Source: a virus. From it: a stretch of DNA of 23,771 nt. Below are positions 1 to 20,021 of the stretch, one piece after another. The translations under genes were made by a program, and so were the position numbers. The DNA lies in the IMG/VR virus record IMGVR_UViG_3300036800_000531, positions 1 through 23,771 of that record; one strand, given 5' to 3'. Within the stretch, counting starts at the first letter, position 1; every line of letters starts with the position of its first letter. The notes beneath the pieces are model-generated. The model ran no database searches and had not been told where the DNA came from. It saw only the letters and a list, made by a program, of their open reading frames with translations.

Positions 1-2196
1 ACCGCCTACACCGGCACCGGCGAGACCGGGACCAGCTACACGGCCCCGCTGACCTATGCGATCTACCCCGGCGCGGCGAGCATCGGCAACGAGATCGCCG
101 GGTCGCTCTCCTACGGCGGGACTTGGCTTCCGATCCCGACCAGCTTTCAGTCGGCCGGCGGCAACCGGGTGCTGCTGAGTCAGGGCACCAGCGAGCCGAA
201 CACGCAGGTCTACTGGCACCCCGCCGCCAGCAGCCGGGCCTTCAGCGGCTCAGCGGCTACCTGCACGATTGACGGGACGGCGCTCACAGTGTCCGGCGCG
301 ACCGGCGCGCTCGCCTTCGGCCAGTACCAGTATCTCGGCGGCAACAACGTCGACTCCACGCCCGGCCTCACCGGCCATGCCGACGCCGAGCAGATGATCG
401 CGGATTACACGCAGATCACCGCGGGCTCCGGCACGTCTTGGACGATCTCTCCATCCCAGGGCTACTACACCGGCCCCTGCATGACCGGGGTCTCGCTCCA
501 GGACGCCAACGCGGCCAAACCGGCCCTGACCGCCGGCCTGCGCCTCGTGAGCTTCACCGGCTCGGCCTCCTACGGTTACCTGATCGTCAACGACCTTCAG
601 TCGGCGATCAACACCGTGTTCGGCGGGAACGGGGTGAACCAGTACGCCTTCTGGCTGAACGGCTACAGCTACCTGACCCTCAACCATCCGACCGTCGTCA
701 TGGCCGCTGCGATGCAGGGCCTCAGCGACAACAACATCGAGGGCATCCGCTGCGATGGCGGCGTGTCGAACGTCTTCGTCAACAACTTCGACGCGCGCTT
801 CATGGATTCGCCGCTCAACGACACTGGCTGCACGAACGTCAGCGTCGAGCACATGCGCGTGCGCGGCTTCAACAACAACGCTGTCTTCATGATCGGTGAC
901 AACTGGACCGTCGCGGACTCCGTGTTCATGGAGCCGATCAACGTATCGTCCTCGCACCCTGACTTCTTCCAGGTTTCCAACAATTACGGCCCGGCCAATC
1001 TGCGCCTCGACCGGGACATCTTCTTCGAAGGCGACTATTACGGGGGTCCGGCCAACAATCAGAGCCCGATCTTCACCGACCTCGGCTGGATTTCAGCCTC
1101 GGGCGGGGCGTACATCGACGACGGCCTCTCCATCGGTTGTGGAACCGCCCCCTGCTACGACGCAGCCACGGGCGGCGATCCGGCCGGCGGGACTACCATG
1201 ACCGTGACCGGCAACAACGTCTCGGGCACCGCGACGTCGATGGGGACCGGCTCGCCCATCTCCGGGACGGGCGTCGTCAGCGGAACCGGCACGACCGCGA
1301 ACATCAGCCCCAACTCCGGGACCGGCGCGACAGCGACCTGGACGGCCTCGGGCGGCGCGATCACGGCGGCCACCATCGTCGCGGTCGGCGGCCATTCCAC
1401 CGCCTCGGGCAATCTCTACACGGTCGGCGACAACCTGACCGCGACGCTCGGCGGCTCCGGCGCGGTCCTGCGCGTGGCCACCATAGACGGCTCTGGCGGC
1501 GTGACCGGCCTCACCGTCGTCAGCGGCGGTACGGGCTATTCGACCAACGGCGCGGCCGCGGCGCTCTCTCAGGGGACCAACACCTATCAGGTGTCGATCA
1601 AACAGGCGGTTCCGCCGACCCAGCTGCACCAGCGGTTCGTGACGAACTTCGCCTCCCATGCCGTCCTCTACGCCGGTTGCTCTGACAGCGCGCCCAAGCT
1701 GCCCCACGGCATCGGCGTGACCCTGACCAACTGGACCTCCGTCAACGTCGGGTTCCCGCCTCAGAACGCGACCGGAAGCCCGTTCTCGAACGAGTGCTCG
1801 ACCAACAATGCGCCCAACTACGCCGGGACCAATCTCGGCCTCATCGGGACCGGCCCGCAGTGGTCCAACGTCGTGCTGAACGGCGTCTATTCGTCGGGCT
1901 CCACGCCCCTCTACCCCTCGGCGGTCACGACCCTGAACAACAGCCAAGTCACCCACGCAACCGGCGTCGTGGCCGGAGATTTCGCCGTGACCTCGCCCCG
2001 CACGGTCATCGCCGCCGCACTGTCGGGGCTCAGCTACCAGACGCCCATGGCGACGGTGATCTCCACCCTCTCCACCGACCTCGCCCCCGGGGCCAACCAG
2101 CAGTCCGGGGCCACCGACTACGGCTGGGAAACGCGGACTTTCCACTGGAACGACGGCTCGGGGGTTCTGGTCTCCACCGTGGGGCCGACGGAGTGA
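1..2196 (+). CDS. Beta-helix tailspike-like protein, 5'-truncated by window edge
   Basis: The reading frame is open from base 1, so this is the C-terminal 731 codons of a longer protein; the GTG at 169 is only an internal candidate start. The middle part has Asn/Asp/Gly-rich rungs (for example NNIEGIRCDGG and NNFDARFMDSPLNDTGC) typical of right-handed parallel beta-helices of the pectate-lyase type used by phage tailspikes and polysaccharide depolymerases. Two copies of a small Gly/Thr/Ser module (about 262-468 and 1186-1330) resemble modules in the cement, sheath and gpJ proteins of this phage, and a second motif type (YTVGDNLTAT, then VSGGTGYS) follows. No catalytic residues can be named with confidence. 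It probably recognises or degrades a host surface glycan. Its place just before the minor head gene, far from the baseplate genes, is unusual. Beta-helix fold is likely; the exact role is inferred. Confidence 0.6.
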   Translation, partial: TAYTGTGETGTSYTAPLTYAIYPGAASIGNEIAGSLSYGGTWLPIPTSFQSAGGNRVLLSQGTSEPNTQVYWHPAASSRAFSGSAATCTIDGTALTVSGATGALAFGQYQYLGGNNVDSTPGLTGHADAEQMIADYTQITAGSGTSWTISPSQGYYTGPCMTGVSLQDANAAKPALTAGLRLVSFTGSASYGYLIVNDLQSAINTVFGGNGVNQYAFWLNGYSYLTLNHPTVVMAAAMQGLSDNNIEGIRCDGGVSNVFVNNFDARFMDSPLNDTGCTNVSVEHMRVRGFNNNAVFMIGDNWTVADSVFMEPINVSSSHPDFFQVSNNYGPANLRLDRDIFFEGDYYGGPANNQSPIFTDLGWISASGGAYIDDGLSIGCGTAPCYDAATGGDPAGGTTMTVTGNNVSGTATSMGTGSPISGTGVVSGTGTTANISPNSGTGATATWTASGGAITAATIVAVGGHSTASGNLYTVGDNLTATLGGSGAVLRVATIDGSGGVTGLTVVSGGTGYSTNGAAAALSQGTNTYQVSIKQAVPPTQLHQRFVTNFASHAVLYAGCSDSAPKLPHGIGVTLTNWTSVNVGFPPQNATGSPFSNECSTNNAPNYAGTNLGLIGTGPQWSNVVLNGVYSSGSTPLYPSAVTTLNNSQVTHATGVVAGDFAVTSPRTVIAAALSGLSYQTPMATVISTLSTDLAPGANQQSGATDYGWETRTFHWNDGSGVLVSTVGPTE

Positions 2197-4793: not shown

Positions 4794-5759
4794 ATGGCCG
4801 TCGGCGATTTCCCCTCCCAGGTTCAGACCTATCAGGCTCCGGCCGTCGAGGGCGACTTTGCCTCGGCCAACCCGCGCGCCTCCGTGCTCGCCGGGGCCGA
4901 GGCCCTGGTCGCCGGGCCCAATGGCGTCACTGTCGGGCGCTTCGCCTGGGTGGATACGACCGGCCAACTCGCGAGCAACAACTCGCCCTACGGCGGCGCG
5001 CCTGACGGCTTCGTCCATCGTGAACAGCAGGCGCTGATCACCACCTTCCTGGCCTCGTCCGGCCTCCTCGTGCCGCAGGGCTTCATGGTCACGCTGCACC
5101 AGGAAGGCGACTTCTGGGTCAAGCACACCGGGACCATCGTCGCGACCAAGGGCATGAAGGCGTACGCCAACCTCGCCACCGGCGCGATTGCCTTCGCCGC
5201 GACCGGCGCACCGCCCTCGTCCGGCTCCGGCTCCGCCTCGTCCATCGCGGCTGGCGCGGGTTCGGTCACCGCCTCCATCGCCATCGTGGCCCCGAACAAC
5301 GGACCCGATTACGGCGTCATGACCGTGACTGCGGTCGGCTCCGGCTCCCTGCCGGTCGGCGCGGTCCTTTCCGGGACTGGCGTGCAGACCGGCACGGCGA
5401 TCACCGCGCAGCTCACCGGCTCGGCCGGCGGCATCGGGACCTATCAGGTGTCGATCCCGCAGACGACCGCGTCGACCACCGTCACGGCGGCCTTCGGTAC
5501 GCTGACTGTCGGCGGCACCGTGGCGGGCGTGTTTGAGGTCGGCGGGGCCCTTTCGGGCACCAACGTCGTGGCCGGAACCACGGTCACCGCGCTGGGCACG
5601 GGAACTGGCGGCGCCGGGACCTACATCGTCAACAACAACACCGTCGTCTCCTCGACGGCCATTTCGTCCACGACCTTCGTCGAGACGAAATACATCTGCG
5701 CCTCCGCTCAGGTTCAGCCGAATACGCTGGGCCGCATGTCCTCCTGGCCTCTGGGATAA
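4794..5759 (+). CDS. Capsid cement/decoration protein (gp24-like) with inserted beta modules
   Basis: The first 140 residues (for example [44 protein letters not shown]) resemble the phage structural cement protein family encoded just before DUF2184-type capsid proteins. The end ([20 protein letters not shown]) resembles the usual C-terminal strand of that family. Between them, residues about 150-295 hold two copies of a Gly/Thr/Ser module ([28 protein letters not shown]) that also occurs in other virion proteins here, apparently inserted into a loop. The protein should bind the outside of the capsid lattice, so the insert may be displayed on the head. AGAGGA-type ribosome binding site at 4777-4782. 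Family call good; display is inferred. Confidence 0.75.
5306..5675 (+). repeat. Two copies of the shared virion beta module in the cement gene
   Basis: Copy 1 (about 5306-5491) codes for [20 protein letters not shown], then [13 protein letters not shown] and [19 protein letters not shown]. Copy 2 (about 5497-5675) is more diverged ([40 protein letters not shown]). The shared pattern is: strand, VG-x-x-(L/I)-(S/T)GTGV, GT-x-(I/V)TA, GG-(I/A)GTY-x-V, then a Thr/Ser-rich strand. Confidence 0.65.
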
Positions 5760-8949: not shown

Positions 8950-9464
8950 CGCCCTCGATCACGGACACCGCCGCGATCACGGCGCTGGGCGATTGGCTGG
9001 TCTCGATCCTGCCCGGCGGCACGCCCGTTTTTCGGGGCCAGGACAACCGCGTTCCGGAGCCCGCGCAGAGCAACTTCGTCGTCATGACGCCGATCGGTCG
9101 CGCGCGCCTGGCCGTCTCCGCCGACACCTGGGACCCGACCGCAACCGCGCCGACCGCGCTGAACGTCACCACATCCACCGGCCTCGACGTCCAGGTCGAC
9201 GTGCATGGGCCCGCGAGCGCCGACTACGTCCAGATCATCATCGCCCTCTTCAGCGACCAGAACGCCTACGAGGCCATCGCCGTAGCCGTGCCCGGACTGG
9301 CCCCGCTCACCGCGAGCGATCCCCTACAGTTGCCGTTCCGAAACGCCGAGGATGAATACGAGGATCGGTGGACCACCAAGCTGACCCTGCAAGGCGACAT
9401 CGTCCTGACACCCCCGCAGGACTTCGCGAACGTGCTGGCCGTGGCGCTGGAGCAAACTGACTGA
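8946..9464 (+). CDS. Neck / tail terminator protein (LIC_12616-like)
   Basis: The ATG at 8946 overlaps the upstream stop and gives 172 residues; the longer frame from 8871 is inside the closure gene. The N-terminal GDWLVSILPGGTPVFRGQDN, then RVPEPAQSNFVVMTPIGRAR, and the later TGLDVQVDVHGPASADYVQI match the phage neck terminator family (LIC_12616-type). These proteins form a hexameric ring that caps the tail tube and joins it to the head. The position immediately before the sheath gene is standard for this type of phage. It overlaps the sheath start as TGATG. Confidence 0.75.
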   Translation: MTPSITDTAAITALGDWLVSILPGGTPVFRGQDNRVPEPAQSNFVVMTPIGRARLAVSADTWDPTATAPTALNVTTSTGLDVQVDVHGPASADYVQIIIALFSDQNAYEAIAVAVPGLAPLTASDPLQLPFRNAEDEYEDRWTTKLTLQGDIVLTPPQDFANVLAVALEQTD

Positions 9465-11179
9465 TGTCGATCCCCGTCAATCAGCTCGCGAGCGTAAGCC
9501 CCGGCGTCATCGGCGCGGGCGGCGCGTCTCAGAGCCTCATCGGCTTGATCCTGACCCGCTCGACGCGCGTCCCCATCGGCACGGTCCTGCCGCTCGGATC
9601 GCTGGCCGCCGTGCAAGCCTACTTCGGATCCGGCTCGACCGAGGCGGCGATGGCCGCGACCTATTTCCAGGGCCCCGACAACGCCGCCGTCACGCCCGGC
9701 TCGCTGCTCTTCTACCAGTACACGGGCGCCGCACCGGTCGGCGCATGGGTGCGAGGCGGGAACGTCGGCGCACTCGGCCTCACCTACCTGCAGGGCCTCC
9801 TGACGACAGGCGTCATTACCCTGACCATCGACGGCACGGCCAAGACGTCGAGCGCCATCAACCTCTCGTCCGCGACCTCCTTCAGCAACGCCGCCTCGAT
9901 CATCCAAACGGCGCTCGGCGCGTCCGACGCCGTGGTGACCGCCGCCATCGCGGTTACGACCGGCATCATGACCGTCTCGGCCGTGTCGTCTGGGACGCTC
10001 GCCGCCGGCCAAGTCCTCACCGGGACCGGCGTGCCGGGCGGAACCACGATTACTAGCCAGCTTTCCGGCACGACCGGTGGCGTCGGGACCTACCAGACGA
10101 GCATCGTGACTGCCGTCGCTTCGACCACCGTCACCGCGGGCGCTGTTACCGTGACCTACGACAGCACCTCGGGCGGCTTCCAGATCAACTGCGGGTCCGT
10201 CGGCGCGACGTCGACCATCACCTATGCGACCGGCACGCTCGCCGCAGGACTGCTGCTCACCGCCGCGAGCGGTGCGATCATCAGCCAGGGCCAGGCGGCT
10301 GCGACGCCGGCGGCGGCCATGGCGGCGGTCATCGCCGTCAACGCCAACTGGGGCTCGTTCGCCACAACCTGGGAAGCGGCGAGCGCCGACGCCATCGCCT
10401 TCGCTGGCTGGACTTCCGGGCAGAGCGGCATGTTCGGATACGTCCAGTGGTCGACGGACGTCACCCTGACGAACACCGTGCCGGCGACCGCTTCGGCCAT
10501 CTACGCGATCATCCAGGCCGCCGACGCCGGGACCTTCCCGATCTACGCGCCGGTCAATCAGCAACTCGCCGCCGCGCTGGCGCTCTCCATCGCCCCGTCG
10601 ACCAACTGGGGCGCCCCGAACGCGCGGCAGAACTTCGCCTTCGTCACGCAGTCCGGCCTCGCGCCCGACGTCGTGAACGGCCAGATCGCGCTGAACCTCA
10701 TCGCCAACGGCGTGAACTTCTACGGCCAGTATGCGGTAGGATCGAACAGCAACAACCTGCTCTATCCCGGATCGATAACCGGCCCCCGCCTGTGGGCCGA
10801 CAGCTTCTTCGACGCGGCCTGGATGAACAGCTCGTTCCAGCAAGCCATGATGGCGCTGCTGATCGCCGTGAAGTCGATCCCTTACACGCCGGCCGGCTAC
10901 GCCCTCGTGCGCGAGGCGATGAGCGGACCGATCGCGGCGGCGCTGAGCTTCGGCGCAATCCGCGCGGGCGTCACGCTCTCCTCGACCGAGATCGCCGCGG
11001 TCAACGCGATGGCAGGCTTCGACATCGCCACCACGATCGCGAACACCGGCTGGTATCTGCTGATCTCGAACCCGTCGGCCCAGGTCCGCGCCGCGCGCGG
11101 CTCGCCGCCGATGACGTTTTTTTACACCGACGGCCAGTCGATCCAGCAACTGACCCTGGCCAGCCTTGAGGTGATCTGA
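9464..11179 (+). CDS. Tail sheath protein (DUF3383 family) with inserted beta module
   Basis: The 571-residue protein starts SIPVNQLASVSPGVIGAGGA and continues with LIGLILTRSTRVPIGTVLPL, YFGSGSTEAAMAATYFQG and LYPGSITGPRLWADSFFD, the pattern of DUF3383 sheath proteins, which form the contractile outer tail layer. The C-terminal handshake region (NTGWYLLISNPSAQVRAARG and SIQQLTLASLEVI) is complete. Residues about 158-226 (IMTVSAVSSGTLAAGQVLTG, then GVGTYQTSIVTAVASTTVTA) are the extra module shared with the cement and gpJ proteins, placed between ASIIQTALGAS and VTVTYDSTSGGFQI where ordinary family members run on directly. The module likely projects from the tail surface. Family assignment is strong. 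Confidence 0.88.
   Translation: MSIPVNQLASVSPGVIGAGGASQSLIGLILTRSTRVPIGTVLPLGSLAAVQAYFGSGSTEAAMAATYFQGPDNAAVTPGSLLFYQYTGAAPVGAWVRGGNVGALGLTYLQGLLTTGVITLTIDGTAKTSSAINLSSATSFSNAASIIQTALGASDAVVTAAIAVTTGIMTVSAVSSGTLAAGQVLTGTGVPGGTTITSQLSGTTGGVGTYQTSIVTAVASTTVTAGAVTVTYDSTSGGFQINCGSVGATSTITYATGTLAAGLLLTAASGAIISQGQAAATPAAAMAAVIAVNANWGSFATTWEAASADAIAFAGWTSGQSGMFGYVQWSTDVTLTNTVPATASAIYAIIQAADAGTFPIYAPVNQQLAAALALSIAPSTNWGAPNARQNFAFVTQSGLAPDVVNGQIALNLIANGVNFYGQYAVGSNSNNLLYPGSITGPRLWADSFFDAAWMNSSFQQAMMALLIAVKSIPYTPAGYALVREAMSGPIAAALSFGAIRAGVTLSSTEIAAVNAMAGFDIATTIANTGWYLLISNPSAQVRAARGSPPMTFFYTDGQSIQQLTLASLEVI
9946..10145 (+). repeat. Shared virion beta module copy in the sheath gene
   Basis: This stretch codes for TVSAVSSGTLAAGQVLTGTG, VPGGTTITSQL and GGVGTYQTSIVTAVASTTVT, closely matching copy 1 in the cement gene at protein level and partly at DNA level (GGSRTCGGGACCTAYCAG and TCGACCACCGTCAC occur in both). 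It interrupts the sheath fold between two segments that otherwise read as continuous. Confidence 0.65.
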
Positions 11180-11183
11180 GCCG

Positions 11184-11621
11184 ATGTCCATCACCTCCGC
11201 AAACGCGGTCTTTTTGATCACCATCCCCGGGGTCTATTCCTCGCCGGTGCAGCTGGCCGCCTTCTCGGCCGACGATATGTTCTCGACGGAGGAGGTCGAG
11301 CCGATCGAGCTTCAGATGGGCGCCGATGGCGTCCTGACCGGCGGTTGGGTCCCGACCATGAACCGGATGAACATCACGTTCCTGGCGTCGAGCCCGTCGA
11401 ACGTCGTTTTCGAGACCTGGGACGTGGCGCAGAATCAGTCGCGCTCGATCTTCAACGCCACGGGCACGGTCGCCCTTCTCGGCACGGGCCGCGTCTACAC
11501 CCTGACCAAGGGCTTCCTCTCGCGGGTGAGCCGCGTCCCGGAAGCGAAGAAGGTCCTGCAGCCGCGCCGCTGGGGGATCACCTGGGGCGCGGTCACGCCT
11601 GGCCCGCAAGCGGTCACATGA
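11184..11621 (+). CDS. Tail tube protein
   Basis: This 145-residue, beta-rich protein follows the sheath gene after 4 nt, the usual place for the tube protein. Features include SPVQLAAFSADDMFSTEEVE, MGADGVLTGGWVPTMNRMNI, FLASSPSNVVFETWDVAQNQ and a C-terminal GRVYTLTKGFLSRV. The GGWVP and SPSN-x-VFE-x-W elements fit the tube proteins paired with DUF3383 sheaths. It would stack as hexameric rings to form the rigid tube driven through the cell envelope. A GAGG ribosome binding site lies inside the end of the sheath gene (11168-11171). The stop overlaps the chaperone start as ATGA. Confidence 0.78.
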   Translation: MSITSANAVFLITIPGVYSSPVQLAAFSADDMFSTEEVEPIELQMGADGVLTGGWVPTMNRMNITFLASSPSNVVFETWDVAQNQSRSIFNATGTVALLGTGRVYTLTKGFLSRVSRVPEAKKVLQPRRWGITWGAVTPGPQAVT

Positions 11622-12061
11622 GGCGCTCGGTAGACTTCACGGTCACCGCCGAGGGCCGCGACAAGGGCAAGGTCTTCACTTTGACCGAAATGCCGGCGCT
11701 GCAGGGGGAGAAGTGGGCAATCCGGGCGCTTCTGGGCATGACCAAGAGCGGCGTCGAGCTGCCGGCGGACGTGGCGCAATCGGGCATGGCGGGGCTCACG
11801 CTCGTTGGCCTGCGCTCGCTCATGATGATCGGCTACGAGGATCTGGAACCGCTGCTCGACGAGATGATGGCCTGCGTCCAGCGCAAGGAGGCGGCCGTCA
11901 CGCGCCCGATGCTGGACGGCGATATCGAAGAGGTGCCGACCATCGCGCGACTGCGGGCGGAGGTCTTCGAACTCCACACGGGTTTTTCCATCGCCGCCGC
12001 CCTCTTGAAATTGGGGACGGCGGCCAGGCTCACGGGGGAGGGCGCTTCGCCGCCCCGGTGA
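11618..12061 (+). CDS. Tail assembly chaperone, zero-frame product (gpG-like)
   Basis: The ATG at 11618 overlaps the tube stop and gives 147 residues; upstream starts in this frame lie inside the tube gene. The sequence (VDFTVTAEGRDKGKVFTLTE, MPALQGEKWAIRALLGMTKS and a helical middle) resembles small tail chaperones encoded between tube and tape measure in contractile phages. Such proteins coat the tape measure while the tail assembles and are not in the finished virion. Near the 3' end (11980-11986) is a G GGT TTT heptamer that should direct a fraction of ribosomes into the -1 frame, giving the longer product listed separately. Position and frameshift together make the call strong despite low sequence similarity. 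Confidence 0.75.
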   Translation: MRRSVDFTVTAEGRDKGKVFTLTEMPALQGEKWAIRALLGMTKSGVELPADVAQSGMAGLTLVGLRSLMMIGYEDLEPLLDEMMACVQRKEAAVTRPMLDGDIEEVPTIARLRAEVFELHTGFSIAAALLKLGTAARLTGEGASPPR

Positions 12062-12216
12062 ACGTGCCGGCCACGGTCGCATCGGTCATCTACAGCGGCC
12101 TGGCCTCGCGGATCGAACTCGACACGGCCTATGGCGTCGAGGACCTCTACGACTTCCTCGAACTGATCGCCGTCCGGGCCCACAACGATCGGGTGGCTCA
12201 TGCCGACGATCATTGA
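11618..12216 (+). CDS. Tail assembly chaperone, -1 frameshift product (gpGT-like, 199 aa)
   Basis: Slipping back one base at 11980-11986 fuses the first 123 residues of the chaperone to 76 residues from the -1 frame (GFFHRRRPLEIGDGGQ, then VIYSGLASRIELDTAYGVED and LYDFLELIAVRAHNDRVA), ending at TGA 12214-12216 inside the start of the tape measure gene. In lambda G/GT, P2 E/E+E' and many contractile phages the extended form bridges tape measure and tube. The acidic-helical C-terminal part here fits that role. An alternative is a separate 52-residue protein from a GTG at 12058, overlapping the zero-frame stop. The slippery site and stem make the fusion more likely. Confidence 0.7.
11980..12024 (+). 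promoter_or_regulatory. Programmed -1 ribosomal frameshift signal (slippery site plus stem)
   Basis: Heptamer G GGT TTT (11980-11986) is in the correct phase for the X XXY YYZ rule: zero-frame codons GGT TTT become GGG TTT. A 6-nt spacer (11987-11992) is followed by a 7-bp GC stem GCCGCCG (11993-11999) / CGGCGGC (12018-12024) with an 18-nt loop. Position before the tape measure gene matches the classic site of tail chaperone frameshifting. Confidence 0.75.
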
Positions 12217-13831
12217 CGCCCTGGTCGTCACCCTCGGCCTGGACCCGAAGGCATTCGAGGAAGGCTCGGACCGCGCCGGGAAGTCCTTCGCCAAGACGAA
12301 GCGCGCGGCCGTCGAGGACGGCAAGGCCATCGAACAGGCGGGCAAGACCGCCAGCGCCTTCTTCTCCAAGCTGAAGGTCGAGGCGCTCGGCTTCTTCGCC
12401 GTCGTCGTCGGCGCGACCTCGCTCGCCAAATTCGCCAAAGAGACCATCGACCTCGCGGCCAACACCGGCCGGCTGGCGACCAATCTTGGCGTTTCAACCG
12501 AGGCGCTGTCGCTCTGGGAAGGAGCGGTACGCCAGAACGGCGGCACGACCGAGGACGCGGTCACCTCGATCCAATCGCTCGTGGGCGCCTTCGAGCAAAT
12601 CCAGCTCACCGGCTCATCGCCGCTGATCCCCTACCTGCAGCTTCTGCATGTCTCGCTCGCGGACCTGAACGATCCGACCAAGACGCTCCTGAAGCTGGCC
12701 GACGCCTTCCACGCCATGGACCCCCGCCAGGCCATGGCGCTCGGAACCGGCATGGGCATGACGCCCGCCATGATCACGCTCCTCGAACACGGGCGCGGCG
12801 CGGTCCTGGGCGTTCTGGAGGCGCAGGCCAGGGCCTATGTGATCCACGCGCGCGACGCCGAAGCGGCGCAGCGCGCTCAACAGCAGATCAGCCTCCTGAA
12901 GGACAGCTACCGCGCGCTGGGAGCGGAGCTTCTGACCGACGCCCTGCCGGGTCTGACGAGGTTCGCGGACGCGCTCACGCAACTGGCGCAGGACCCCGCG
13001 ACGCACGAGCTGCTGGACGAAACCGAGCGTCTTGGCTCGGCCGTGGGCCACATGGTCGCCGACGTCATGGGCGCGCTTTCGATCCCGACCGGCGAGAGCG
13101 GGTTCGTGAAGTGGCTCACCAGTCAGGTGAAACAGGCGACGTGGATGGTGCAGGGGCTCGACGCCCTCGCCCACTGGACCACGACGCCCTTCGCGCAGCG
13201 GCACAAGGCGTGGCAATATTGGCAGGCGGCGTCGATGTATTTCCAGGCCGCTGGCCAGGAGTCGGCCATCGATTGGAGCAAGACGCCGGGCGCGCCGACC
13301 TCGTCCATCCCGGCCGGCGCGGACCTCGTCTCCACTGGCGTACCGCTGGGCGTCATCGCCGGCCTCTATGCTGAGAGCGGCATGGACCCGAACGCGGTCA
13401 ATCCCACGACCGGCGCCTATGGCATCGCCCAGTGGCTCGGCCCGCGCCTGACGGCCCTTAAGGCATTCGCGGCGGAGAAGGGCAGGCCGGTTTCCGACAT
13501 GGGCGTTCAGACAGCCTTCCTCATCAAGGAGCTTTCCGACCCGCGCTACGCGGCGATCCTGAACGCCCCCGATGAGGGGACGCGCGCGAGCCGCTTCATC
13601 GGCGATTTCGAGCGACCGGGGGCTGGCTACGCCGGGGACATGGTCCGCGCTCAAAGGTGGCTGGCCGCGCAGCGCAGCGGCGGCCCGGTAAGCCATCGCC
13701 ACAGCGAGACGCACATCGGCACGATCCAGGTCCACACCCCGGCGACCGATGGCGCGGGCGTCGCCAAGGACCTCGGCCAGCATCTGGCGCAGAACGGCTT
13801 GGTCGTTCAGGCTGACACGGGGCTTCAATGA
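12200..13831 (+). CDS. Tape measure protein with C-terminal lysozyme-like domain
   Basis: The 543-residue protein has a helical tape-measure N-terminal part (DPKAFEEGSDRAGKSFAKTK; hydrophobic stretch ALGFFAVVVGATSLAKFA near 65-85; then TNLGVSTEALSLWEGAVRQ), typical of short tape measures. Residues about 370-490 form a lysozyme-like domain of the phage-tail-lysozyme type: IAGLYAESGMDPNAVNPTTG, AYGIAQWLGPRL, with Glu392 the likely catalytic acid, and GDFERPG. It would set tail length and locally cut peptidoglycan during genome entry. The start ATG lies 17 nt inside the frameshifted chaperone end, so coupling is expected. The C-terminal SHRHSETHIGTIQVHTPATD is a common tape-measure tail end. Length suggests a short to medium tail. 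Confidence 0.82.
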   Translation: MPTIIDALVVTLGLDPKAFEEGSDRAGKSFAKTKRAAVEDGKAIEQAGKTASAFFSKLKVEALGFFAVVVGATSLAKFAKETIDLAANTGRLATNLGVSTEALSLWEGAVRQNGGTTEDAVTSIQSLVGAFEQIQLTGSSPLIPYLQLLHVSLADLNDPTKTLLKLADAFHAMDPRQAMALGTGMGMTPAMITLLEHGRGAVLGVLEAQARAYVIHARDAEAAQRAQQQISLLKDSYRALGAELLTDALPGLTRFADALTQLAQDPATHELLDETERLGSAVGHMVADVMGALSIPTGESGFVKWLTSQVKQATWMVQGLDALAHWTTTPFAQRHKAWQYWQAASMYFQAAGQESAIDWSKTPGAPTSSIPAGADLVSTGVPLGVIAGLYAESGMDPNAVNPTTGAYGIAQWLGPRLTALKAFAAEKGRPVSDMGVQTAFLIKELSDPRYAAILNAPDEGTRASRFIGDFERPGAGYAGDMVRAQRWLAAQRSGGPVSHRHSETHIGTIQVHTPATDGAGVAKDLGQHLAQNGLVVQADTGLQ

Positions 13832-16441: not shown

Positions 16442-18259
16442 ATGCGCCTCGCCCTTCTCCCGGCCCTCGCCGCCATCCTCTTCACCTCGGCCGCCGCCGC
16501 TCAGGCCGTCGTTCCGTCCGGTTCGCTGCCCGCTCGAGGAACGCCGGCATCGACCGATACCTACATCACCGTTCCCATCGGAGGGACGGCAAAGCAGGGC
16601 GCTCTCCCCGACCTGGCGTCCTATGTCCGGATCAGCGTCAAAAGCTACGGCGCGAAGTGCGACGGGACGACCGACGATACGAGCGCCATCAACTCGGCAT
16701 TGACCGCGGCGGCCGCTGTGGGCGGCGAGGTGCTGGTCGATGGGGGCTGCAAGGTCGGAACCAGTGGCGCGGGCGTCACCATTCCTCCGGGCGCGACGCT
16801 GGGCGGGGCTTCGTGGCAGGGCGCAAACCCGGCGGTCGGCTCGCAGTTGATCTGCAACAACCAGGCCGCGTACGTCTGTTTGACGGTCTCCGGCTACAGC
16901 GGATCGAATGGCCTCTTGGCCAATGGCGTCCACGACCTTTCGATCATCGGCACAGGCGGAACGCCGGTCAGCGGCTTCATCGGGCTGGAATACCTGGCCG
17001 GGTACGAAGTGTGGGGCCGGGAGATCAAGGTCGCCAACGCCGACACCTGCATCCTGTGGAAGGCGGGTGTCCCGACGAGCGGCGGTATCAGCTTCGACGG
17101 CTCACGGATCAACGCCGCTCAGTGCAAGAGCCACTACCTCGTCTTCGACGGCTGGCCTGAAGCCCGCTTCAACAGCGTGAGACTGGGCGACAATGGCTCC
17201 GGCGACTATGCGGCCACCGACGCCGTCCTCTTCAAGAACACCGCCTGCACGACTTCGGGATGCGGCCCCAACGGGATCGTCTTCACCGCACTCCAGATCA
17301 ATCCGCAGAACAGCCTCGGGTGCGCCTTCCGCTGGTCAAGCTACGGCGGCGGGAGCGGCGTGGGCGCAGAGTTCAAGATCGCTCACTCGCACGTCGAGTG
17401 GCACACCTCCGGCGGCACGGCGGTGTTCTGTTCGGACAGCACCTGGACCACACTTTCGAACCTGGTGGTCGACTCCACCACCTTCTCGCTCGGAAGCGCC
17501 AGCGTCCCCCTGTTCGCGTTCAACAGCGCCACCGCGCTCGTTCAGGATTACTTCCGGGGCAACAACTTCGGCGGCTGCACCGGGATCACGCTGGCCCCGT
17601 CCCCGGCCTCGGGCGCGGCCTTCTCCGATGTCTGGTTTACCGACAACTTCGGGTGCGTCGCAGCGTCATTCACGTCGAACGGGACCGGGACGAACAAGCT
17701 CTATTCGCTCCACAACAACTGGAACGCCCTGACCGTCGCCGGCGCCTGGGATGGCGCGCTGAAGAGCGACGACTATTTCTCGACCATCACCGACTCCGCC
17801 ACCGGCAACGTCTACATGACCGAGCCGCAGCAGACCTGGACCCCCAAGCTCGCCCTGTGCGCCGCCGCCACCTTCGGGTGCGGTACGAGCGCCGGGACGC
17901 AGACCGTGTGGGGGCGCTATCAGCGCACGCCTTCGGGCGGCTTCATGGCCTCGTTTCAGGTCACCATGACCGGGACTGTGGGCGGGTCTGGCTTCGCGGA
18001 GATCGAGGGCCTGCCCTTCACCTGCGCGTCGTCTCAGCAGAGCGCGGCCAGCGGGGGACCGGCCACCTACCAGGGCGGCATGGTCAATATGTACGGGCCG
18101 CTCATCTTCCAGATGTCGACGGTGTCGGGCGCGCCGCTGATGCTGTTCGAGCCGGGCGCGGCCAGCGGATCGCAGACCAATCTCGTTCAGATCCCCTACG
18201 CCAATCTCTCGTCGACGAGCACGATGGCGGGGACGGTCTCCTGCGCCAAGGCGTCGTAG
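16442..18259 (+). CDS. Secreted pectate-lyase-like beta-helix protein (tailspike candidate)
   Basis: The 605-residue protein starts with a clear Sec signal peptide (MRLALLPALAAILFTSAAAA, cleavage near AQA/VV). Residues about 60-130 are the typical pectate_lyase_3 / GH28-related opening (ISVKSYGAKCDGTTDDTSAI, then NSALTAAAAVGGEVLVDGG and VTIPPGATLGG), followed by beta-helix rungs to about 440 and a C-terminal jelly-roll-like region with many Cys (LALCAAATFGCGTSAGTQT). This is the layout of phage tailspike depolymerases, but an export signal is odd for a particle assembled in the cytoplasm. The gene splits the usual spike-wedge gene order and is preceded by leader element C. It may be a tailspike or an exported capsule-modifying protein. 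Confidence 0.72.
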   Translation: MRLALLPALAAILFTSAAAAQAVVPSGSLPARGTPASTDTYITVPIGGTAKQGALPDLASYVRISVKSYGAKCDGTTDDTSAINSALTAAAAVGGEVLVDGGCKVGTSGAGVTIPPGATLGGASWQGANPAVGSQLICNNQAAYVCLTVSGYSGSNGLLANGVHDLSIIGTGGTPVSGFIGLEYLAGYEVWGREIKVANADTCILWKAGVPTSGGISFDGSRINAAQCKSHYLVFDGWPEARFNSVRLGDNGSGDYAATDAVLFKNTACTTSGCGPNGIVFTALQINPQNSLGCAFRWSSYGGGSGVGAEFKIAHSHVEWHTSGGTAVFCSDSTWTTLSNLVVDSTTFSLGSASVPLFAFNSATALVQDYFRGNNFGGCTGITLAPSPASGAAFSDVWFTDNFGCVAASFTSNGTGTNKLYSLHNNWNALTVAGAWDGALKSDDYFSTITDSATGNVYMTEPQQTWTPKLALCAAATFGCGTSAGTQTVWGRYQRTPSGGFMASFQVTMTGTVGGSGFAEIEGLPFTCASSQQSAASGGPATYQGGMVNMYGPLIFQMSTVSGAPLMLFEPGAASGSQTNLVQIPYANLSSTSTMAGTVSCAKAS

Positions 18260-18620: not shown

Positions 18621-20021
18621 ATGACCGCCGTTCCGTCCCCCACGTTCGGCCCCACCGGATTTGCGATCCCCGCCGAGAGCGCAGTTCTGGCCGGCGTCCA
18701 GGCCGACATGAACGCGGCGTTCGGTGGCAACCTCAACCCGGACCTGACGACGCCGCAGGGCCAGCTCGCATCGTCCATGACGGCCGCCATCGCGGATAAG
18801 AACGATCAGTTCCTCGCTCTGACCAACGGCGTCGATCCTGCCTTCGCCACCGGGCGGATGCAGGACGCCATCGCGCGGATCTACTTCCTGACGCGCAACG
18901 CGGCCCAGCCGACGACGGTCCTCGCAACGTGCGTTGGCCTCGTTGGGACGGTGATCCCGACCGGGGCGCAGGCCAAGGCGAGCGACGGGAACATCTATCT
19001 GGCCACGACCGGCGGCACGATCCCGGCCGGCGGCTCGCTGACGCTCTCGTTCCAGTGTTCGGTGACCGGGCCGATCGCCTGCCAGACCGGAGCTCTGGCG
19101 ACGATCTACCAGACCATTCCCGGCTGGGACACGATCAGCAATCCGGTCCCCGGAGTCGTGGGCAACGACGTCGAGACGCCCGCCGCTTTCGAGGCGCGGC
19201 GCAAGCGGTCCGTGGCGCTCAACTCGGTCAGTCCGCCGGACGCCATCCTCGCCGCGGTGCTTTCCGTCCCCAACGTCATCGACGCCTATGTGGTGGACAA
19301 CCCGACCAACGCGCCGGTCACCATCGGCGGCGTCACGCTCGCGGCGCACTCGGTCTACGTCGCGGCCGTGGGCGGTTCGTCGATGGCCGTCGCTCAGGCG
19401 CTCTGGTCCAAGAAGCCGCCCGGCTGCAACTACAACGGCAACACCTCGGTCACGGTCTATGACCCGAACCCGCTCTATCAGACGCCGCCATCCTACGCGG
19501 TGACCTACGAAATCCCGCCGAACCTCTCGATCTTCTTCAACGTCACGATGAGCGCGGCGGGTGCGCCGGCCAATGCCCTGGCGCTCGTGCAGGCCGCGCT
19601 GCAGTACGCCTTCGCGGGCGAGGACGGGGGACCGCGCGCGCGGATCGGCTCGACGATCTTCGCCCTGCGCTTCTACTCCGGCATCGCCGCCGCATGGCCA
19701 GGCGCTCAGGTCGTTTCCATCGCCATTGGATCGGCCAACGCGCCGGGCGCGGTCATCACCGGCTCGATCAGCGCCACGACGCTCACCGTCTCGGCTACGT
19801 CGTCGGGCGCGGTCGCCATCGGCCAGTTCATCACCGGGACGGGCGTGACGGACGGGACCTATGTCGTCTCCGGCTCCGGATCGACCTGGACCGTCTCACA
19901 GAGCCAGACGGCCGCCAGCGAGACGATGACGCTGATCGCCGCCAGCCTCGCGGACCTGACCGTGCAGATCAATCAGGAGCCGGTCCTGTCCTCGGCCGAC
20001 GTTCAGCTCACTCTGGTCTAG
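18621..20021 (+). CDS. Baseplate wedge protein, gpJ / gp47 family, with inserted module
   Basis: The 466-residue protein has the family opening [20 protein letters not shown] and [20 protein letters not shown], then [40 protein letters not shown] and [20 protein letters not shown], all characteristic of baseplate J/gp47 (Mu gp47-like) proteins that form the wedge around the hub. Residues about 380-443 ([39 protein letters not shown]) are the module shared with cement and sheath, placed just before the usual last strands ([20 protein letters not shown]). It shows no frame disruption. The insertion into a normally short loop is unusual for an internal wedge protein. Confidence 0.85.
19757..19950 (+). 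repeat. Shared virion beta module copy in the gpJ gene
   Basis: It codes for [38 protein letters not shown] and [20 protein letters not shown]. Compared with the sheath copy it keeps TVSA-x-SSG-x-(L/V)A-x-GQ-x-(L/I)TGTGV and the final strand but lacks part of the centre. It sits between the segments [13 protein letters not shown] and [10 protein letters not shown]. Confidence 0.6.

Follow-up and report, generated by a model that had tools for sequence, protein, structure and literature searches.

The window, an IMG/VR virus record of 23,771 bases in which profile scans recognise the structural module of a contractile-tailed phage, very probably encodes two forms of the tail assembly chaperone by a programmed -1 ribosomal frameshift; we put the probability of this comparative reading at about 95%. 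The -1 slip is predicted not only for this phage but for every relative examined. The sequence elements, their conservation and their covariation are direct observations. The mechanism is of the lambda G/GT type and thus of a kind already known. New are the family-wide evidence, the proposed identity of phrog_3976 as the T domain, and the frequent use of non-standard heptamers such as GGATTTT.

Gene order and reading frames

The structural genes of the window code for a Mu F-like protein, a DUF2213 protein, a cement protein, the major capsid protein, a DUF3383 tail sheath, an E217-gp32-type tube protein, the chaperone, the tape measure, a Dit-like protein, a baseplate plug, a hub, a spike apex, baseplate J and a lysozyme-family protein. 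The presence of the DUF3383 sheath gene indicates a phage with a contractile tail. The chaperone gene is situated between the genes for tube and tape measure with the sheath upstream, i.e., in the position claimed for a G/GT-type gene when the DNA was read on its own. The 'tube' role of the product encoded ahead of the chaperone would follow from gene order. The features are collected in Table 1.

Table 1. Features of the chaperone locus and of other genes of the window discussed in the text
Feature	Position	Strand	Evidence or remark
Tail sheath (DUF3383)	9464..11179	+	PF11863 E=3e-107; phrog_205 tail sheath; Gly/Thr-rich module at residues ~113-293
Tail tube-type structural protein (E217 gp32 family)	11184..11621	+	PF22764 E=2.6e-18; phrog_1964
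Zero-frame tail assembly chaperone (G-like, TAC-N; 147 aa)	11618..12061	+	phrog_1932 E=5.5e-39
Shine-Dalgarno-like GGAGGT, possible upstream stimulator	11959..11964	+	inferred
Slippery heptamer G_GGT_TTT	11980..11986	+	in phase; homologues with same protein position
-1 frame extension (T-like domain, 76 codons + stop)	11986..12216	+	phrog_3976 'unknown function' E=3.6e-20
Spacer, 6 nt	11987..11992	+	between heptamer and hairpin
Putative stimulatory hairpin, stems of 7 and 4 bp around a 1x1 mismatch, loop of 8 nt	11993..12024	+	folding; arm-swap test
Candidate independent start GTG (GTGA)	12058..12060	+	-1 frame; judged not a conserved route
Predicted 199-aa fusion (GT-like, TAC-NC)	11618..12216	+	via -1 shift at 11980-11986
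Tape measure protein	12200..13831	+	phrog_9570 tape measure E=2.9e-38; overlaps end of -1 ORF by 17 nt
Cement-like protein	4794-5759		Gly/Thr-rich module at residues ~127-310
Baseplate J	18621-20021		Gly/Thr-rich module at residues ~330-448
Large fibre-like protein, cut by window start	1-2196		Gly/Thr-rich module
Large fibre-like protein	16442-18259		weak pectate-lyase-like match

All coordinates given in the sequence-only reading, the spacer included, were correct on re-examination. The zero-frame codons ACG GGT TTT TCC put the heptamer in the X_XXY_YYZ phase which a -1 shift demands, as had been claimed. The zero frame ends with the TGA at 12059-12061. The -1 frame indeed remains open beyond this stop and terminates with the TGA at 12214-12216, within the start of the tape measure ORF. 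The extension had been described as adding 76 residues. This holds if one counts from the slip site. Since the shift also costs the short form its final 24 residues, the protein becomes 52 residues longer overall (123 + 76 = 199 residues in the shifted product, 147 in the unshifted one).

Two further observations concern other proteins of the window. Several different structural proteins share a Gly/Thr-rich module, SGTGVxxGTxITxQLSGTxGGxGTYQ. With composition correction off, the comparison gives 37% over 191 aa for sheath and cement and 42% over 90 aa for sheath and baseplate J. It looks like a surface insertion common to virion proteins and exchanged among them. Further, there are two large fibre-like proteins, the first of which has no Pfam match; both are possible tail spikes.

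Protein products

The zero-frame product is recognised as a chaperone by its PHROG profile. Phage_TAC_15 of Pfam matches 11 of 34 relatives (best 4.5e-5), and the Pfam scan gave no match for the window's own chaperone or for the -1 domain. The AlphaFold2 model of the chaperone part has a pLDDT of 90.8 and in Foldseek matches predicted phage chaperones, among them AB1gp01 (E=4e-7). Against the PDB no significant match was obtained with the window models. The HK97 chaperone 2OB9 is the seventh Foldseek match (E=2.7, TM 0.36-0.40), and predicted phage chaperones match better. Sequence searches with both domains against solved structures returned chance-level matches only.

The -1 product belongs to phrog_3976, a family matched by all 40 relatives tested. 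In the window this match begins upstream of the only nearby start codon. The model of the T part (pLDDT 87.9) consists of a linker of about 25 residues predicted with low confidence, followed by a three-helix domain for which Foldseek lists short uncharacterised phage proteins at E 0.01-0.1. On the frameshift reading, phrog_3976 is the C-terminal (T) domain of the chaperone.

Conservation of the slip site

Homologous loci were taken from two viral-contig scans, one bacterial-genome scan and eight annotated phage regions. Including the window this yielded 182 loci, of which 178 were placed automatically and 113 are unique; thinning to at most 85% nucleotide identity left 88. A DNA-level search of INPHARED phages with positions 11600-12300 gave no match. 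One contig, IMGVR_UViG_2700989241_000001, carries the chaperone locus twice, with about 20 kb between the copies, which could reflect a junction of two related tail modules or of neighbouring prophages.

In the homologues the slip site occupies the same position in the protein, just after a conserved LHx(G/D/N)F. Its core TTTT is invariant in 88 of 88 thinned loci, despite the fact that GGN, AAY, GAY and TTY codons are free to vary without a change in protein. Thus, GGT, GAT or AAT always end with T, and TTT is never TTC. The base preceding the slip codon covaries with it: in all 11 loci with AAT the base ahead of it is A, and GGT and GAT mostly follow a G. The commonest sites are GGGTTTT, without a longer T run, then GGATTTT and AAATTTT. 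GGATTTT is an imperfect X_XXY_YYZ; G_GA(U) slip sites are functional in several RNA viruses (PMC5009743). When the first three bases do not permit re-pairing, a second phased site, T_TTT_TTN, is found in 11 of 14 loci compared to 17 of 74 otherwise (Fisher p = 1.2e-4, without correction for relatedness).

Three thinned loci possess neither a clean heptamer nor T_TTT_TTN, and P-site re-pairing would be poor there, which weighs against the frameshift reading. These are L084 (Klebsiella phage RCIP0114), L130 and L151 with the sites CGCTTTTG, TTCTTTT and CGATTTTTC, respectively. A locus outside the thinned set, L128, has GTCTTTT. In all four the -1 product is conserved despite the odd slip site; in L084 the hairpin is nearly absent. 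Conservation of the heptamer had been suggested as a check in the sequence-only reading; essentially all homologues retain the slip site.

U_UUU is among the more shift-prone tetramers in Escherichia coli, and the most efficient -1 motifs reported for this bacterium are of the type H_HH.U_UU.Y, in which H is not G (PMC4066793). G_GGU_UUU is outside this set, which counts against the frameshift reading. A low efficiency of slippage is what a G/GT system needs.

Coding signal past the slip site

The -1 frame runs beyond the zero-frame stop in all 113 unique loci. The length of the -1 product is constant, 69-91 codons from the slip site; the zero-frame tail measures 3-141 nt. Ahead of the heptamer the diversities at the three zero-frame codon positions,.39/.26/.60, are as usual for a gene read in the zero frame. 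Over the ten codons that follow the heptamer they are.37/.60/.51 (70 loci with a long overlap), i.e., the greatest variability has moved to what is the third codon position in the -1 frame. Directly after the slip the -1 product is already conserved (FFxxRRxxDxG), 25 codons upstream of the GTG in the window.

Elements downstream and upstream of the slip site

The 7 bp stem proposed earlier is perfect (11993-11999, GCCGCCG; 12018-12024, CGGCGGC) and continues beyond a 1x1 mismatch with 12001-12004/12013-12016, giving 7+4 bp in total. Folding of 11992-12024 gives a minimum free energy of -21.5 kcal/mol (z = -4.1). Across the family the hairpin starts 5-6 nt past the heptamer, within the 5-7 nt range for a stimulatory stem-loop. 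In the 88 loci the 48 nt which begin 12 nt after the first base of the heptamer have a mean folding z of -1.5, with 55% of loci below -1.5; at six control offsets the means are between -0.39 and +0.27. When the 5' arm of one locus was combined with the 3' region of another, the pairing weakened from -16.75 to -13.01 kcal/mol (Z -13.4, 0/5000 permutations; Z +0.2 to -2.7 at eight control offsets). This demonstrates that the two arms change together in a compensatory manner. Part of the 5' arm is held constant by Arg codons that the -1 product conserves; these codons do not explain the complementarity of the partner arm.

We also considered that the hairpin might compensate for weak heptamers and rejected this, as its strength does not rise with weaker ones: the energies are -19.2 for GGG, -18.8 for GGA, -15.6 for AAA and -15.3 kcal/mol for loci with none of these.

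A Shine-Dalgarno-like element upstream of the slip site is a lead absent from the sequence-only reading. GGAG, GAGG or AGGA occurs in the equivalent interval in 54 of 87 loci compared to 40.4 (sd 3.6) in synonymous shuffles, a count reached by 0/300 shuffles; four control intervals are not clearly enriched. GGAGG at exactly the spacing of the window is present in 31 loci. The Glu codon at this site is GAG in 51/65 instances, compared with 52% in the rest of the gene (p 4e-5). The combination of slippery heptamer, downstream stem-loop and upstream Shine-Dalgarno-like element resembles E. coli dnaX. The known upstream spacing which stimulates -1 shifting is 8-11 nt (PMC6321510); unlike in dnaX the GGAGG of the window ends 16 nt before the heptamer. 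The element is therefore a lead rather than an established part of the signal. A further difference from dnaX is that the frameshift product of the chaperone gene is longer and not truncated.

Alternative explanations

Could the -1 frame be a separate small gene, started by stop-start coupling at the GTG (GTGA) and yielding a 52-residue T-only protein without any frameshift? This GTG, which the sequence-only reading did not mention, is in the right frame, overlaps the zero-frame TGA and in principle could start such a protein; moreover, public records often show T as a hypothetical gene of its own or have nothing annotated there. Yet relatives do not conserve this start: only 8 of 88 loci have GTGA or ATGA at the zero-frame stop, 55 loci have no ATG, GTG or TTG between residues -2 and 30, and 18 have none in the -1 frame from the last stop upstream of the slip site to residue 45, which excludes a separate gene with a usual start codon in these. 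In addition, the conserved motif and the -1 type of diversity begin at the slip site, far ahead of the GTG. Across the 88 loci the T region has no conserved start of its own. This is the opposite of the outcome named beforehand as speaking against a frameshift, a lost heptamer with a downstream frame that has its own start. A coupled separate gene is not a general explanation and the GTG of the window is not needed; as an independent start it was rejected on conservation, and we regard this reading as very improbable.

Alternatively, the extension may arise from slippage of RNA polymerase on the T run instead of from ribosomal slippage. T7 tracts can cause transcriptional slippage (PMC4066793), and the slip sites have a T-tract core which extends to T_TTT_TTN in about one third of the thinned loci. 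However, the commonest form has no longer T run, and the run in the window is only five Ts, which makes transcriptional slippage unlikely. Further, the covariation of the preceding base with the slip codon fits tRNA re-pairing, and the compensating hairpin sits at a ribosomal distance; a polymerase would need neither. This route is exceedingly improbable. It might also be argued that a chance heptamer lies beside an ordinary overlapping ORF which is not expressed in the -1 frame. GGGTTTT is found once in the window versus 0.88 expected on both strands, so that a lone copy is not improbable, and high-GC sequence yields many spurious ORFs. What goes beyond chance is position, phase and conservation. 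Site, frame, product and hairpin are conserved in 113 unique loci, and an accidental heptamer, contradicted by these comparisons, was rejected as practically negligible.

Proposed mechanism

According to the programmed frameshift reading, most ribosomes would stop at 12061 and release the 147-residue, G-like chaperone. A minority would slip back one base on G_GGU_UUU, aided by the hairpin 6 nt downstream, and would read on to 12216 to produce the 199-residue fusion, whose C-terminal T-like domain would be reachable by the frameshift route only. If lambda is a guide, the tape measure protein would be coated by both forms, with the T domain bringing in tube subunits and so linking tape measure and tube; neither form would be part of the finished virion. 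The analogy with lambda (PMC5009743) is the basis for inferring that slippage occurs, at what rate, and what the two products do.

A more specific proposition concerns the make-up of the signal. Tentatively, and with the odds rather against it, the shift may rest on the invariant U_UUU (a tRNA-Phe slip) together with optional P-site re-pairing (GGG, AAA, GGA, or the second T_TTT_TTN frame when those fail), the covarying hairpin, and a Shine-Dalgarno-like pause element at the unusually long spacing of 16 nt. If true, this would be a three-part bacterial -1 signal with an upstream element beyond the dnaX spacing.

Relation to known systems

The heptamer of lambda gpG/gpGT is G_GGA_AAG. This family was described by Xu, Hendrix and Duda 2004, and -1 frameshifting of the chaperone has precedent in lambda and most long-tailed phages (reviewed in PMC5009743). 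As in lambda, a short chaperone and a minor -1 fusion would be encoded between the major tail protein and the tape measure, with T accessible only by the shift. Unlike lambda, the window has the heptamer G_GGT_TTT in a phage with a contractile tail, and its family preserves an immediately downstream hairpin by compensatory change. The chaperone and T families also have no recognisable sequence similarity to those of lambda, as Pfam and PHROGs scans gave no lambda-family match.

A closely similar case is that of the Vandenendeviridae/Andersonviridae myophages (phage Adele). The accessible part of that report describes a contractile tail, a -1 shift at an invariant GTTTTT near the end of TAC-N and a downstream T ORF wrongly annotated as a separate gene; unlike in the window family, a hairpin or an upstream element does not figure in this part (PMC12846349). 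The second commonest heptamer of the chaperone family, GGATTTT, equals the G_GAU_UUU at which dianthoviruses, umbraviruses and insect flaviviruses shift to the -1 frame (PMC5009743). These are eukaryotic RNA viruses which share the heptamer only. A literature search outside subscription journals found no prior report of a chaperone frameshift in Obolenskvirus or Pbunavirus relatives.

Annotation of relatives and significance

In the annotations of relatives the frameshift has mostly been missed, or T has been entered as an independent gene with no assigned function. No annotation covers the T region in Acetobacter phage phiAO1, Klebsiella phage RCIP0114 and Pseudomonas phage Orisa03. Pantoea PA-1, Aeromonas vB_AsaM-56 and Edwardsiella Edno5 list it as a hypothetical gene of its own, and in Acinetobacter YMC-13-01-C62 it bears the name 'putative tail-fiber/lysozyme protein'. 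The finding would correct the annotation of a large group of contractile-tailed phages and prophages that have a DUF3383 sheath and are related to Obolenskvirus and Popoffvirus phages. Their small ORF ahead of the tape measure gene (phrog_3976), so far 'hypothetical' or unannotated, would become the C-terminal domain of a frameshifted chaperone. Beyond this, the 88 diverged loci represent a natural mutagenesis experiment on the tolerances of a bacterial -1 signal.
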